Below, piece by piece: positions 24,246 to 30,674 of a stretch of 64,000 nt of DNA (the stretch's first letter is position 1; each line of letters opens with the position of its first letter). The position numbers and the translations under genes are program-made. The stretch is from the NCBI GenBank assembly GCA_003290465.1, contig CP030759.1, positions 2,306,572 to 2,370,571 on the forward strand, in the 5' to 3' direction. The notes below the pieces were generated by a model. It was not told where the DNA came from. It saw nothing but the letters and a program-made list of their open reading frames with translations, and made no database searches. This stretch comes from Candidatus Sumerlaea chitinivorans. Its GTDB lineage: Bacteria > Sumerlaeota > Sumerlaeia > Sumerlaeales > Sumerlaeaceae.

Positions 24246-24776
24246 TTAGCGAAGCGCTCGCACGAAGGCTTCCACCAACGCGCGGCCAATGGCGGAATCT
24301 GCGCCGAGCCACCATACGGCCACGGCCACAGCCACCACCGCAAAGCGAATCGGATGGCGCTCACACCAACGCAATGGCCCCCAGCGTTCCTCGTTGCGCT
24401 CATGGTACGCCGCATGCTCGCGCAACGCGCTCACGACCTCCGTCTCAATGCGTTGGACGTGGTTCTCCAGCCGCGTCAGCGCTTGCCCAATATGGCGCAG
24501 CTCACTCGTAACCTCGCCCCGCCAGTGCTCAAGGGACACAGCGCCCGCGACGCGAGTGGGACTCGTCACGGAAGTGAGCGATGCTTGGAGCCCACTCTCC
24601 ACATCCGTTCCGGGGAGCTCTCCTGCTGGACAAGCCCATTGCGACATGCCGGGACTTTTTTCTCCGGACATATTGCTCGCCACACCGCCCCCGTCAGGAC
24701 GTGGGTTCGAGACTGTCTCCGTTGGCTCCCCTTCTTGGTGGCCACGGGAGAATTTCGATGTGCCAAACGCAACCAT
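24246..24776 (-). CDS. Small coiled-coil protein with one C-terminal TM helix
   Basis: 176 residues from the ATG at 24776, with AAAGGAA upstream. The first 90 residues are low-complexity and polar. Residues about 95-140 form a coiled coil (LRHIGQALTRLENHVQRIE), then a basic stretch and a TM helix (RFAVVAVAVAVWWLGA) near the C-terminus. The order coiled coil then TM is like short phage membrane proteins of the XhlA/holin type. It is the last gene of the minus-strand run that includes phage head genes, so a phage origin is possible but not shown. Function unknown. Confidence 0.5.
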   Translation of the reverse strand: MVAFGTSKFSRGHQEGEPTETVSNPRPDGGGVASNMSGEKSPGMSQWACPAGELPGTDVESGLQASLTSVTSPTRVAGAVSLEHWRGEVTSELRHIGQALTRLENHVQRIETEVVSALREHAAYHERNEERWGPLRWCERHPIRFAVVAVAVAVWWLGADSAIGRALVEAFVRALR

Positions 24777-24983
24777 CGGATTCCTTTCAACTCTACGTAA
24801 ACAGTGAAGGCCTGCGCCGCCACGAAATGTCAGCGGCGTTCTCACGTCAGCCATGCGATACCGCGCCGTCCGCAAACGACTCTCCCGTCTATGCCCACGC
24901 TATGCACCTGCGGCTGGCGACGCGCGCAGCCGAGGGAGGAGCGCCCCATCTGGCCTGACTGGCGCCTGAGACCAACACCATGC

Positions 24984-25742
24984 CTACATTCGCTTGGCGC
25001 TCAGGGCGAAGGCCTCAAGGTTCGCGTTCTGTTCCTGCATCGTCTGGCGTGGGCCGGTCACCTTGACAAAGAGCAACCCCTGAGGTCCGCCCTCCACCAC
25101 CAACCCAAAGAGGGCGTAGTCGGGCTTGGGCTCCTGCGGAGGCCCCATCATGCCCATGGCAGTCGGCGTGTAGGTGCCGGACGTGCGCACCAAGTAGAGC
25201 CGCAGGCCCCCCGTCTCCAGTTCTGCCACGTCCGCGGGCTGGGAACCGGTCGTGGCCTCATCGCTGCGGAACTGGCCGACCCAACGCTCGATGTTCGCTT
25301 TCGGCGTCCCGCCTTGCCCTGGCCCAAACGCGAATACACTCATCTCGGCATCGCCACCGCTGCCCGGCAAACGATACTGCGCAAGCCGCACGGGCGACGA
25401 AGGCTCTTCCGGAATCCAGCCATCGGGAATCATGAAACCAATCCCCGCCGCGAGCAGTGAGCCAGTGGTGGCACGAACACCGCCGCGATCCGCTGGAGCA
25501 GGCATCCCCATGCTACCTGCGCCGGAAGCTGCGGCCCCCTGAGAAGGCATCCCGCGGGGCGCTCCCCCGCCGGCTCCTGTGTCGCTCGCAACAGCGAGCC
25601 GGAAGGGTGTGGCGGGGGGAGGCGTTTCGCCGGGCGGCCGACTCCACCGCTTTGGGGCATCGCCTTCGCCGCAGCCACCAAGCCCAACGATCACTAACGC
25701 AACCACCACACCTATCCTTCCAAGGTTCCGATCTTTGCTCAT
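24984..25742 (-). CDS. Hypothetical lipoprotein
   Basis: 252 residues from the ATG at 25742 (purine-rich GAGGGAGAG upstream). The signal peptide IGVVVALVIVGLGGC ends in a lipobox. A Pro/Gly/Ala-rich linker (about 30-95) leads to a globular domain beginning GIGFMIPDGWIPEEPSSPVR, a pattern seen in small extracytoplasmic domains. No family recognised. It sits between phage-type genes and the coiled-coil TM protein on the same strand, yet resembles a host envelope protein. Confidence 0.65.
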   Translation of the reverse strand: MSKDRNLGRIGVVVALVIVGLGGCGEGDAPKRWSRPPGETPPPATPFRLAVASDTGAGGGAPRGMPSQGAAASGAGSMGMPAPADRGGVRATTGSLLAAGIGFMIPDGWIPEEPSSPVRLAQYRLPGSGGDAEMSVFAFGPGQGGTPKANIERWVGQFRSDEATTGSQPADVAELETGGLRLYLVRTSGTYTPTAMGMMGPPQEPKPDYALFGLVVEGGPQGLLFVKVTGPRQTMQEQNANLEAFALSAKRM

Positions 25743-25944
25743 ATTTCTCTCCCTCGATCTAAACCTCTCAACAAATCGCCCGCTGGGGCCGAGCAATCAA
25801 TCGTGCAAGGAACGCCGCAGGTGGTTTGCCCTCGCTCAAGCGGTCCTTGCACGCCTTTCGGCGATATTTGCGGCCAATGAGCCTTCAAAGCAAAATTCCG
25901 CACGTTGCTTTCGATACCACACTGCAGTGATCTTGCCGGAAAAT

Positions 25945-26280
25945 TCAGGACCGCTCCGCTCTCCATTCCTGAAGGCCCACGACGCGGGCTTCGTGCTCAG
26001 GTCCGTCGGTGGGCTCCGCGACAGGGAGTTTGGCCAGATGCTCGCGGACGGCTTCCAGCACACACAATTCCACGAGAGCCTCAAGGGCTTCCCCCGATGC
26101 GGCGGGCAGAAGGGTCCTGAAGAGTGCCGCGAACTCAGCAGCTACCGCGTGCGTTTCTTTCTTGGTTGGAAGGAGCGACGTTTCCCCAAGCGCCTGCAAG
26201 GCTCTCGCAAGACCTCCTGCTTGTTCCATTACCCGCAAAAGATGTTCCGCTGCAGCATTTTCGCGCTTCTGACTTTTCAT
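25945..26280 (-). CDS. Small helical protein next to the capsid gene
   Basis: 111 residues, strongly helical, with no signal peptide or TM helix. It begins MKSQKRENAAAEHLLRVMEQ and is rich in Ala, Leu and Glu. In tailed phages the position just after the major capsid gene is often taken by a head-completion or connector protein, but this sequence shows no recognisable motif. It is 216 bases after the capsid stop. Confidence 0.45.
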   Translation of the reverse strand: MKSQKRENAAAEHLLRVMEQAGGLARALQALGETSLLPTKKETHAVAAEFAALFRTLLPAASGEALEALVELCVLEAVREHLAKLPVAEPTDGPEHEARVVGLQEWRAERS

Positions 26281-26496
26281 AGTTCTGTCTTCTCTTTCGT
26301 TCTCTTTGCTTTTTGTTTCCGGACGGCGTCGGTCAGGGAAAGCTGTGGCAGCAGGGCTACGGGCACAATCGCGTCACGGGATCCCGCCTGCAGAGACCGC
26401 GCGCGTCGCCCGCGCTTTGGCCAGCTTGAAGAATGGCTCTTAGGCCTTGCGTTCCCCCGACTGCCCTTCTCCCCCGCTGCCACAGACCTGCAAAGA

Positions 26497-27435
26497 TTAG
26501 TCCACCACGTTCAAAATCCGGTAGGCGGCCCCCGGCGCGATTAGCTTGTGGTCGTAGTACATCTGCACGCGAATCATGTCAGCCTTGCGGCGGTTTTCGC
26601 GCCAGCGCTCCACAAGCCATCCGCCGACACTTCCCCCCACCCCCGTCCACACAAACGTCGCGGCGGCCATGACTTGCTTGAGGGCGGGACGCGGTGGCAC
26701 ATGGAGAACGAACACCTCGTTCTCCCACACGCTCACGCAGATGGGCGGCTGCCCCTTGCGCGCGATGTTCTTGAACGCGCGCGGCACCAGTACCCGGTCC
26801 ACGTCGAGCACCTGTGCCAGAAGCTGCTCCGTCACGACGCCGGCGGTCGTGTACTTGATGCGCTCGACAATCCGGGGATGATTGCGCAGGACATCGAAGA
26901 CGCGATACGGCAACACCACCACGTTTGCGCGCCGCTGCGCATTTTGAAAAATGCTCTCGCGTGCCAGCTGGAAATACTGAAGCGGGTCCGTCGCGGGATC
27001 GTTCCAGTGCTCTGTCGGATCCAGTGAGGTCTCTGGAATCATGGTCGCTGTGCGCAACAAGGTCTCCAGCGCGATCTCTCGATTGAGCGCGATCTTTTCC
27101 GTAAGTAGTTCTGTGCGGTCGATGTCAGGCTGGAGCGGGGGATCGGCGTTCTCGCGCTCTTCGTCGGGGATGGCGGCCTCGAGCGCGTGATCCTCGCAGA
27201 AGTAGCTATCCGAGCTCAACGCGAAGTCCACCTCTGTGGCCTCCGCTCCAGGCGAGCGCAGATCGGGTGTCTGGCGGATCATTTCGCGCTGTGGATCATA
27301 AACGAAGTACTTGTCACTTTGTTTGCGCACCGCCACGCGTGGCGCAACCTCATCCGCAATGTAATCGCCGTTGCGATAGGCCACACTTACGTGGGTAAGC
27401 GCGGTGTCAATGTGCACTTGCGAGACTTCAGGCAT
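26497..27435 (-). CDS. Phage-type major capsid protein
   Basis: 312 residues. Features typical of major capsid proteins of Mu-like and related siphophages are visible: an N-terminal arm, HVSVAYRNGDYIADEVAPRV, then DYFC-like and NREIALETLLRTA helices. The middle has VVVLPYRVFDVLRNHPRIVERIKYT, and the end has VWENEVFVLHVPPRP and MIRVQMYYDHKLIAPGAAYRI. The first and last blocks are characteristic of HK97-fold capsid subunits. The frame is intact with no stop. It follows the cement protein gene by 59 bases, as in phage head operons. The subunit would form a procapsid together with the portal and protease encoded upstream. Confidence 0.78.
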   Translation of the reverse strand: MPEVSQVHIDTALTHVSVAYRNGDYIADEVAPRVAVRKQSDKYFVYDPQREMIRQTPDLRSPGAEATEVDFALSSDSYFCEDHALEAAIPDEERENADPPLQPDIDRTELLTEKIALNREIALETLLRTATMIPETSLDPTEHWNDPATDPLQYFQLARESIFQNAQRRANVVVLPYRVFDVLRNHPRIVERIKYTTAGVVTEQLLAQVLDVDRVLVPRAFKNIARKGQPPICVSVWENEVFVLHVPPRPALKQVMAAATFVWTGVGGSVGGWLVERWRENRRKADMIRVQMYYDHKLIAPGAAYRILNVVD

Positions 27436-27494
27436 GGGGTTTCTGTCCTTTCTTGGCTATTCGGGGTTTTCAAAAGCGTGGGTCACCAGACACG

Positions 27495-27884
27495 TTAGGC
27501 GGTGTGTTCGTGAATCGAGATGAACACCTCGATAATGTCGCCGTCGGTCACCGCTGTGGTTTCCGCAAATCCAAGGCAATTGAGCTTGGTGCCCGGGCTT
27601 GCCGTGGCTTGCTTCACCTTGCCGGAGCTGCCGGCGGCAATCACCGGGGCTCCGGCGGGAATTGCACCCGCGGCCACCACCTCGGCAATGCCCGCCTTGC
27701 GGACGGTCACGGCGCGCCCCTCCGACAACTGGCTATGCATGGTAATGCCGAGAAGCCCAGGCGCGTTCTCCGCGGCCGGCAAAGTGCACTCTCCCGGAAG
27801 TGGGCCTTGCACCACCACGCGCCCGGCTCCAACTCCGTTCGGACTAACGATTTTGTAGGTCTTGTCGAGTAAGTGAATTGGCAT
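27495..27884 (-). CDS. Capsid cement/decoration protein, DUF2190-like
   Basis: 129 residues. The pattern PGLLGITMHSQLSEGRAVTVRKAGIAEV, then AGAIPAGAPVIAAGSSGKV and LGFAETTAVTDGDIIEVFI, matches the DUF2190 family of phage capsid cement proteins. These bind to the outside of mature capsids and stabilise them. The gene lies between the protease and the major capsid genes, as in many phages. Length is near the family norm. Confidence 0.8.
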   Translation of the reverse strand: MPIHLLDKTYKIVSPNGVGAGRVVVQGPLPGECTLPAAENAPGLLGITMHSQLSEGRAVTVRKAGIAEVVAAGAIPAGAPVIAAGSSGKVKQATASPGTKLNCLGFAETTAVTDGDIIEVFISIHEHTA

Positions 27885-27941
27885 AGTTTCGCTCTCTTTC
27901 GCTGTAGAACTTGCTCAATGTCGTTGCGATGGGGCGGCTGT

Positions 27942-28907
27942 TTAAGCTTTTGCGCTTCGACGTGCGTGCGAGCTTCTCGATCCTCCGGCCCGTCCTGCCA
28001 CGCGACTCAGGGCCTCGGCGTAGCCGAGGTTTGGCTGCGACGCTTGGAGCGCCCGGGCTTGCTCGTGGAGCTCCACGCTCAGCGGATCCACCTGTTCGCC
28101 GAAACTTAACACCGGCGACGATGCAACCGTCCCGGCGAAGGACGCGAGCTCGCCCTCGACGGGCTGCTCCAGCTCGCCACACGTCAGATAATGCTCAAAC
28201 CACTCCTCCACCCCGATCTCATGCCCACGGTACGAGATGGTGGCGTCAGGTTCGAGTGCGTCCACAAACGCCAGCAGCAGTTGCGCTCCCTCGGGCGAAA
28301 TGCGCTTGCTCCCCTTCGGAACACGCGCCAAGACCACCTCGAGGCTTTTCCGTCGCAACGCACGACGCAGCTGGGTGACTTGTTGCTCGAGATCCGCGCG
28401 ACCGTTATTGTCGTCAGGCGCACTTGCCCCACTTTCGGCGTCCTCAAAACACACAATCTCTGCCTGCTCATCGAATACGACATCGCGCAGACCTTTCACC
28501 TCGGGACTCGCAGCGCCCAAAAGGGTGACAGCTCGCAGGTACGGTCGGCCCGTGGGTGCGAATTTACGGATCAGCTCCACGCTACGCTTCTTGTAGGCGC
28601 CTTGGCGCACTAACTCACGGACGACCTCCGGAACACCCGAAAGTGTGGCGACGAGACGATCGCCAACTCTGCGCAGACGCGTGACCCAGCCGAACGCCGG
28701 ACCACTCCGCGCGTGGTCAAAAGTGAGGGGCGCTTCCAGAACGTCGGGCGAATAGTCGTTTGCCAAGACCTCGAGATCCTCTTCGGTCCAACGCCCCTTC
28801 GCCCCGTAATCGCCCGATCGGAACACTTCCATCTCAAGCTCGCCCTGCGCCCCCGCGGGAACCGGGCCCACCGCGCAAGGGGGGACCTGCGTTTTGTCCT
28901 TTGCCAT
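27942..28907 (-). CDS. Phage head maturation protease/scaffold, Mu gpI-type
   Basis: 321 residues from the ATG at 28907, with GGAGG six bases upstream; an upstream in-frame TTG at 29015 has no ribosome site. The N-terminal half has TFDHARSGPAFGWVTRL and YKKRSVELIRKF followed by YLRAVTLLGAASPEVKGL, the block order of Mu-like gpI proteases, with candidate catalytic His and Ser. The C-terminal half is a Glu/Gln-rich helical region with a coiled coil (about 170-200), which in Mu-type proteins is the scaffold. The protein would shape the procapsid and then digest itself. It follows the portal gene, from which it is separated by a 183-base gap. Confidence 0.78.
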   Translation of the reverse strand: MAKDKTQVPPCAVGPVPAGAQGELEMEVFRSGDYGAKGRWTEEDLEVLANDYSPDVLEAPLTFDHARSGPAFGWVTRLRRVGDRLVATLSGVPEVVRELVRQGAYKKRSVELIRKFAPTGRPYLRAVTLLGAASPEVKGLRDVVFDEQAEIVCFEDAESGASAPDDNNGRADLEQQVTQLRRALRRKSLEVVLARVPKGSKRISPEGAQLLLAFVDALEPDATISYRGHEIGVEEWFEHYLTCGELEQPVEGELASFAGTVASSPVLSFGEQVDPLSVELHEQARALQASQPNLGYAEALSRVAGRAGGSRSSHARRSAKA

Positions 28908-29008
28908 AAGCTTCCTCCAATTTGTTGGCTTTCGTTGGATAGACGGTTTGGCTTGCGGAGAGAGAGGATAGAACCCGTGCAGCCACTCTTGCTCCGCCTT
29001 GTGTGATG

Positions 29009-29022
29009 AGAACAAATGTTCT
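29009..29022. promoter_or_regulatory. GAAC-N4-GTTC palindrome, SOS-box-like
   Basis: AGAACAAATGTTCT is a 6+2+6 inverted repeat that contains GAAC-N4-GTTC, the core of the LexA box of many bacteria. It lies in the gap between portal and protease genes. A close relative is at 33656-33671. LexA binding is inference. Confidence 0.4.
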
Positions 29023-29031
29023 AATGCGCTG

Positions 29032-29046
29032 CTACGTTTTGTGCAT
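29032..29046 (-). other. Four-codon frame with a near-perfect ribosome site
   Basis: Read on the minus strand, TAGGAGGTGAGCA precedes ATG-CAC-AAA-ACG-TAG. This excellent Shine-Dalgarno site begins a frame of only four codons. It may be a leader peptide or the remnant start of a lost gene between portal and protease. Confidence 0.35.
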
Positions 29047-29090
29047 TGCTCACCTCCTAAATCCTTGTTATTCGCCGCACTGAGGTTGGA

Positions 29091-30674
29091 TTAGTGCGGT
29101 AACTGATCCTTGTGCGCCTCGAGGGCGTCCACGAGCGGCTCCTTCTGGGCGGCTGCGTCCGCTTCCGTGCCCCCTGCCGGTCCCTGCCGCACGGGTGGCC
29201 GGTTGCCCCACGCAACCGGCGGCAGACCCAGCGCCGCGCGCACCTCATTCACCGTCAGCACCCCATACTGCAGGTGATATTGGTAAAGGTTGGCGTCGTC
29301 GTACTTGAGCACCCGGCTTACCGCGCTCGGCGCAGGCCTGCGATACTTGGCGTAGAAATAGTCGGTCTCGAGTGGCACGCCCAACTGAATGAGGCCCCGG
29401 TCGAGCTCGAGCTCGGCCTTGTAGTCCTGCGGCTGCTCGCAGTCGAACACGAGCTCGGGCGCGGCCACGTGGACCCCAAAGTTGAAGTCCACCAGCCAGC
29501 GGATGAGCTGATGCGTGAGCGCGTCGCCGAGCGCTCGCGCGTCCGCGGCCAAGTAGTCGTAGCGCACGGCCTCGTGCACCCGCCCCAGCGCAAGGCTTCC
29601 CGAGCGGCGCCCCTCGCTGGTGGTCAGCGTCTGGCCAAGCACGAGCTTCGAGATCTCGTCGTTGCACCAGTCGGCGAATTCGCGGTAGGTGCCCGCCGCA
29701 CCCGAGCGGTGCGCTTCGAGCAGCTCCATGCTCACACTCTCGGGAATGACGACCCCCAAATCGCTTTGCAGCTGCGCCACAACCTCGTTGAGGCGCTGAA
29801 TCTCCTCGGGTGTAGTCCCTGCGCCGTAGCGCGCGACGGCAGTTGGCGCCCCAAACTTCTCGTTGTACAGCGACCAAAACCGCAGATTGTTCTTCTTGAA
29901 CCAGTAGTACCAGTAGGCCTTGGCGCAGAGAGCGCTGCCATAGGGCGCGGCTGGGTGTGGCTGAAAAACGAAAATAAGGAACTTGCGGGGCGGGAGTGCG
30001 ACGGGACGCCCCCAAGGCGCGCTCCATTCGCCGGGCCGCGCCAAAAGTGCGGGGGTGCGGCCATGACCCAAGTCCCCTTGGGTTGCCGGCATCGCGCTCT
30101 GCGGCTCTGGGTCGAGCAAAAACCACTGCCCCACATCATCTTGGGCAAAGTAGCCCGGCCACCGCGGCGCAAGGCGCTCCACGCGAACGCGATTTTCTTG
30201 CTCCTCCCTCCGCCAGATGATCTCAAGGACGGCGAACCCTTTTCCGAAGGCGTCGAGCAGATGTAGGATCGCCTCGTGGAAGTTCGGAATTTCGCAAAGA
30301 GTCTCCTCGAGGAATTGAGCGACTTCTTGCCGGTGTTCGGCACGGGTGTGCGGTCCCGCCGTGCCTCCCGCCATCGCGTGTGAAGCGGCATGCTGAGGGC
30401 GCGGGGCACGGCCGCCGACTTGAACCTTGCTCGCGCCGCCTTCCCTCCAGACCACGCGCCATGGACAAGCCGCGAGGGCGTTGCGGCGGGTCTGGAGTGT
30501 GGCGAACAAGTGCGCGTCCTTCTCCTCCATCTCCTGAAACAGCCCGTAGATACCGCCGGGCATCCGCCAACGAACCTCCGCATCCAGCACATAGCTGAGG
30601 CTCGCGTCCGCCGTGGTTGCCCGGGCTGCCACACGGGCAATTTCGTGCTCAATGGGGTTAGGGCGCTTAGTCAC
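29091..30674 (-). CDS. Phage portal protein, DUF935 (Mu gp29-type)
   Basis: 527 residues from the GTG at 30674, with AAGGAG upstream; the frame is open for another 73 codons without a good start. The sequence has the DUF935 hallmarks: YGLFQEMEEKDAHLFATLQTR near residue 40, FKKNNLRFWSLYNEKFGAP and AVARYGAG in the middle, then ISKLVLGQTLTTSEGRRSGSLALGRVH and the helix with ALTHQLIRWLVDFNFG. Portal proteins form the dodecameric ring at one capsid vertex through which DNA passes. The frame is intact. In Mu-like phages the genes upstream are terminase subunits; here none is visible in the next 650 bases, where the strand changes context. Confidence 0.85.
   Translation of the reverse strand: MTKRPNPIEHEIARVAARATTADASLSYVLDAEVRWRMPGGIYGLFQEMEEKDAHLFATLQTRRNALAACPWRVVWREGGASKVQVGGRAPRPQHAASHAMAGGTAGPHTRAEHRQEVAQFLEETLCEIPNFHEAILHLLDAFGKGFAVLEIIWRREEQENRVRVERLAPRWPGYFAQDDVGQWFLLDPEPQSAMPATQGDLGHGRTPALLARPGEWSAPWGRPVALPPRKFLIFVFQPHPAAPYGSALCAKAYWYYWFKKNNLRFWSLYNEKFGAPTAVARYGAGTTPEEIQRLNEVVAQLQSDLGVVIPESVSMELLEAHRSGAAGTYREFADWCNDEISKLVLGQTLTTSEGRRSGSLALGRVHEAVRYDYLAADARALGDALTHQLIRWLVDFNFGVHVAAPELVFDCEQPQDYKAELELDRGLIQLGVPLETDYFYAKYRRPAPSAVSRVLKYDDANLYQYHLQYGVLTVNEVRAALGLPPVAWGNRPPVRQGPAGGTEADAAAQKEPLVDALEAHKDQLPH

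Follow-up and report, generated by a model that had tools for sequence, protein, structure and literature searches.

Gene transfer agents (GTAs) are phage-derived, vertically inherited systems whose genes in many cases occupy loci hundreds of kilobases from one another (PMC9662315, PMC11841831, PMC10883770). Their presumed ancestors are headful packagers (PMC7947584), and the usual description is of a head plus its associated tail (PMC11841831); encapsulins, the other described systems of interest here, are compartments with the HK97 fold (PMC8346489). Here we analyse a cassette of phage head genes (positions 24246-30674, minus strand) in a stretch of 64,000 nucleotides from Candidatus Sumerlaea chitinivorans, referred to as the window (contig CP030759.1; G000:C1:2306572-2370571), which belongs to a complete genome of 3.29 Mb. 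G000 stands for the window genome, other G numbers for the genomes compared with it, and L numbers for individual loci. Together with a terminase gene found elsewhere on the chromosome, the cassette probably encodes a GTA-like, DNA-packaging particle that is maintained by its hosts, inherited vertically across the Sumerlaeota class and split over two loci. Our full-text search of open-licence papers turned up neither a GTA nor such a cassette described for Sumerlaeota, and the principal genome paper on this phylum, which states that no pure culture existed, mentions neither phage nor capsid.

The cassette begins with a portal protein of the Portal_Mu family (29091-30674; PF06074, E 7.5e-92), whose GTG start has AAGGAG upstream, followed by a head maturation protease (27942-28907; phrog_976, E 1.2e-39), a capsid cement (decoration) protein (27495-27884; PF09956, E 2.6e-6, and phrog_673) and a major capsid protein (MCP) of HK97 fold (26497-27435; phrog_1005, E 3.9e-76), all on the minus strand. 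A first-pass annotation, made from the DNA letters, had called these head genes intact and consecutive, and indeed all four have start and stop codons, zero internal stops and family matches. The portal and the protease are preceded by clear ribosome-binding sites, and the alignment shows that the protease retains the conserved catalytic His (FDHA) and Ser (KKRS). The AlphaFold model of the MCP has moderate confidence (predicted local distance difference test, pLDDT, 66), and in the PDB it matches phage capsids of HK97 fold (3bjq, E 1.6e-13). The guanine-plus-cytosine fraction of the cassette (0.60-0.66, against 0.61-0.63 in adjacent host genes) agrees with the host-like composition noted earlier. 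The genes examined on both flanks look host-type, and the locus showed no recognisable terminase, tail or lysis gene, also as first described.

The first-pass annotation had further proposed that packaging would use a terminase encoded elsewhere, and the window genome and most of its relatives do have, at another locus, a large terminase (TerL) gene predicted to be catalytically intact. Terminase_6N (PF03237), tried as a TerL probe, matched only 2 of the 39 class genomes and missed this terminase. The Mu-type family phrog_38 detects TerL in 34 of the 39, including the window genome, where the gene (G000:C1 2201171-2202946) and the cassette are ~128 kb apart. The encoded protein has intact Walker A (APRGYAKST), SAT and Walker B (IILDDVE) motifs and all three acidic motifs of the nuclease. 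TerL is a solitary gene with host neighbours in almost every genome inspected; in G013 and G033 it lies near the cassette, and in G015 it shares a contig with the portal. OppB/OppC permease genes flank TerL in the window genome and flank the cassette in G001, and MCP, portal and TerL are all absent together from G004 and G011.

A capsid retained by its host could also serve as a protein compartment, an encapsulin-like cage that stores protein cargo and has given up DNA packaging. The cassette resembles encapsulins in its host-retained shell, HK97-fold by the MCP model, and strong purifying selection on that shell would suit a cage, as would the loss of tail-tip genes in the window's family, which leaves DNA delivery not obvious. 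Unlike an encapsulin, however, it is more than a cargo-only shell: the portal, the maturation protease and a separately kept TerL with ATPase and nuclease motifs are conserved, and a cage needs none of them. No recurrent cargo enzyme or gene was seen beside the cassette. We consider a cage unlikely, and prefer a GTA-like particle because portal, protease and terminase are all retained.

Elsewhere in the class, most families have after the MCP genes for a gp36 adaptor (PF07030), a tail-tip (hub) protein of ~1000 amino acids and a spike-like protein with a signal peptide; several families carry in addition a protein of ~200 amino acids between the adaptor and the tail-tip gene. The label hub is based on gene order and phrog_1101, and the tail-tip model gives weak whole-chain matches to the tip proteins of lambda, T5 and JBD30 among many unrelated beta-rich proteins. 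In a true provirus of G010 the corresponding tail-tip genes come after the tape measure protein. Tape measure matches were absent from the window genome and limited to 4 of 39 genomes across the class. Two exceed the cut-off and lie in true proviruses; the other two are weak and fall below it, and one of these (contig G002:C29) also resembles provirus sequence. With the exception of that contig, profile searches found tail-tip and distal genes absent genome-wide in the window's family, and the adaptor is absent from the window's genus and the nearest neighbouring genus. Loss within the family is the simplest reading of this absence, and tail genes could also be present but unrecognised; the isolated cassette of the window is the extreme case among the forms seen in the class. 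Because the tail-tip genes are missing, and in the window's genus the adaptor too, the particle in this family would be a tailless, DNA-filled head. We tentatively propose that such host-encoded heads, with a motor gene that would have been kept apart from the head genes throughout the family's history, may export DNA tail-free or handle the cell's own DNA.

Head and terminase might instead serve a DNA-related role inside the cell or at its death, such as stress DNA packaging or degradation, or a bacteriocin-like particle, rather than gene transfer. No tail is recognisable in the window's family, and still the conservation of its MCP is similar to that of rpoB (84 vs 86% identity in G001/G007; 73 vs 75% in G000/G001). 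Other families, on the other hand, keep the tail-tip gene and the spike-like gene with its signal peptide, which point to particles contacting other cells. We regard a purely internal or terminal role as improbable.

The GTA-like reading is also supported by the history of the genes. At E <= 1e-34 the MCP was found in 34 of the 39 class genomes, almost always as a single copy and with 46-73% identity to the window MCP, and the portal in 32, with one portal in most class genomes; outside the class, weaker and scattered MCP matches occur in 14 of 347 genomes. The order portal-protease-cement-MCP is constant across families, with members dispersed in some genomes, as in G016, where portal, head genes, tail-tip gene and TerL lie on four separate contigs. 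A tree of portal, protease and MCP from 23 genomes shares 10 of 20 splits with the rpoB tree, for which open reading frames were chosen by homology, while permuted labels gave a mean of 0.26 and a maximum of 3 (5000 permutations); the corresponding distances are correlated (Mantel r 0.79), with none of 5000 permutations as high. For the TerL tree, 10 of 13 splits agree with those of rpoB (Mantel r 0.89).

The ratio of nonsynonymous to synonymous substitution rates (dN/dS), a check put forward with the first-pass annotation, was measured mainly on G016/G022 and G034/G038 and is low. In G016/G022, the closest pair, it is 0.046 for MCP, 0.115 for protease, 0.21 for cement and 0.154 for TerL, against 0.040 for rpoB. 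Identities of MCP and rpoB are close in several pairs, the two mentioned above and another at 96/95%, and MCP falls below rpoB in others (85/92% in G034/G038, 79/87% in G026/G032). The cassette and TerL genes are inherited vertically and kept by purifying selection. In G016/G022 the head cassette occupies the same locus with collinear flanks, so that the expected conservation of its position is seen in this pair; it fails between genera of the window's family, where chromosomal synteny was looked for and not found, and the flanking genes differ. In alphaproteobacteria the carbon content of the MCP is a GTA signature. The value obtained here, 2.93 side-chain carbons per residue, lends no support to a GTA-like particle because it does not differ from that of viral contigs (2.94).

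The first-pass annotation had left the choice between a domesticated cassette and a prophage remnant, and these results keep the former and discard the latter. A recent Mu-like prophage, degraded by loss of its terminase, tail and lysis genes, would account for the missing tail genes at the window locus, and real Mu-like or siphophage proviruses with homologous heads do occur in the class (L054 in G010, L053 in G034). It would not account for a single copy in nearly all class genomes, a tree congruent with rpoB, an MCP dN/dS near that of rpoB, head genes free of stops, or a gene order fixed across families; moreover, true proviruses in the same genomes bear divergent MCP copies, at 25-28% identity. 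Neither patchy distribution nor gene decay was found, nor a complete prophage at the locus. A recent degraded prophage is thus highly improbable, the remnant reading stands refuted at the level of the whole class, and the cassette is not a prophage remnant.

Least probable of all is a capsid-encoding satellite (like the capsid-forming phage-inducible chromosomal islands, cf-PICI) or other mobile element borrowing helper-phage tails: head genes without tail genes, as found here, are the hallmark of capsid-forming satellites, but inheritance is vertical and in fixed single copy class-wide, for which reason we prefer the GTA-like reading, horizontal spread was looked for and not found, the locus and its collinear host flanks are shared in the closest pair with host genes on both sides, and the terminase is far off and immobile among host genes.

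On the GTA-like reading, the ancestor of the Sumerlaeota class would have captured a phage head module that the host has kept since. Portal, scaffold/protease and MCP would assemble a procapsid; TerL from the second locus would dock on the portal and fill the head with chromosomal DNA, probably by headful packaging in the manner of Mu-type terminases, and the cement protein would stabilise the product. Most families would complete the particle with the gp36 adaptor and a tail-tip/spike assembly, with no tape measure, and cell exit and DNA delivery might possibly involve a lipoprotein and a membrane protein encoded at the end of the cassette.

Host-kept phage head genes, vertical inheritance, purifying selection and a motor made of TerL and portal, all recognised by sequence analysis, are features that the system has in common with GTAs. 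A tailed particle was looked for in the genes of the window genome and not found, and because of this we do not file the cassette as a GTA but describe it as GTA-like up to DNA packaging. As in the alphaproteobacterial GTAs (RcGTA, Rhodogtaviriformidae), the genes are host-maintained, vertically inherited over long periods, tree-congruent and dispersed over loci (PMC9662315, PMC11841831, PMC10883770). The phage ancestor was a different one (Portal_Mu, phrog_1005 MCP, Mu-type TerL), TerL is not linked to the head cluster, tube and tape measure were not found and the window's family is without tail-tip genes; also unlike RcGTA, the system is known so far from its genes. Particle genes kept by the host are likewise a feature of the Bartonella BaGTA, whose particles are described as tailless or short-tailed (PMC9662315). 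The BaGTA cluster differs in being larger, in having TerL and MCP in one neighbourhood, and in its lineage. Among named phages, the nearest to TerL are Mu-like transposable siphophages of Pseudomonas (MP38-type, ~31% identity), and the nearest to the MCP are RDJL, KPP23 and Arthrobacter phages (~29-32% identity; YuA/RDJL-type siphophages). Unlike the cassette, MP38-, YuA- and RDJL-type phages are complete, with linked terminase, tube, tape measure and replication genes. Mu-like transposable phages pack host DNA ends.

Several observations weigh against a GTA-like particle. The particle itself, its packaging, its release and any transfer are deduced from the gene complement. TerL would belong with the cassette on the basis of co-occurrence and shared history; TerL is present without head genes in G031, and in three incomplete genomes (71-84%) head genes were found and TerL was not. 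The relatives are mostly incomplete metagenome-assembled genomes, and the calls of absence are based on profile searches. Half of the splits differ between the cassette and rpoB trees; most of these are weakly supported, and two well-supported ones, the position of G015 and the order within family f7, are found with rpoB only. For the window genome and its nearest relatives dN/dS is merely indicative because synonymous sites are saturated, and within the window's own lineage it is amino-acid conservation that is informative. No small terminase was identified, no search having been aimed at it, and no lysis gene. Tail tube and tape measure were not found in the cassettes, and adaptor, distal tail protein and hub were not found anywhere in the window genome, so that DNA would have to be delivered there without visible machinery.

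Downstream of the MCP the window cassette carries three further minus-strand genes to which neither Pfam nor PHROGs gave an identity. The small helical protein that had been reported lies at 25945-26280; by profile search it is conserved only in this family's cassettes, apart from a weak relative that G010 carries between the adaptor and tail-tip genes. The other two, within the same range, also travel with the cassette in relatives. One is a lipoprotein (24984-25742, lipobox LGGC) conserved downstream of the cassette in the window's family, a candidate for a role in the particle. The other is a coiled-coil protein with a C-terminal transmembrane segment and a NEHRWG-like motif, here NEERWG (24246-24539; the GTG start was picked from the alignment, and a longer open reading frame begins at 24875), which is cassette-associated in two families and by its anatomy could possibly be a release or membrane factor. 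Within the window no tRNA was found, and promoter and terminator scans gave no signal above chance.

If the GTA-like reading is true, an uncultivated phylum has a system of this kind that descends from a separate phage ancestor, and it could be recognised only because its terminase is encoded at a second locus. The class would also offer a natural reduction series, from families with adaptor, tail-tip and spike-like genes to a family with head and motor alone, which opens the question of which selection keeps a DNA-packing head once the tail is gone. The case also cautions that capsid cassettes standing alone in other phyla may be functional. Two similar ones were seen outside the class amid host genes, L202 7222-12693 (G222) and L203 10008-14486 (G320), with portal, protease, MCP and either gp36 or cement, and terminase-free at the locus; they are perhaps the same kind of domestication elsewhere.

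MCP matches in IMG/VR fall mostly in phage-like loci, at 32-43% identity. One contig filed there as viral, L119 (IMGVR_UViG_3300016457_000611), carries a Sumerlaeota cassette including the tail-tip gene, with an MCP identity of 58%, and is probably a bacterial fragment misfiled as a virus. L207 (G002), like L054 and L053, is a true Mu-like or siphophage provirus or a piece of one; the heads of these loci, where present, are divergent. In G029 (L210 2208-7951) the tail-tip gene directly follows the portal, the protease-cement-MCP block is missing and no MCP was found in the genome. The full cassette is present in G021, a member of that genus, and the missing block reflects a deletion or an assembly error. 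Finally, at L027 10236-12130 (G010) four extra genes lie between the adaptor and the distal tail protein: a tail-terminator-like gene (phrog_490), an Ig-domain gene (phrog_2175), the relative of the small helical protein and an unknown one. Of all the cassettes in the class, this one may be the most complete.

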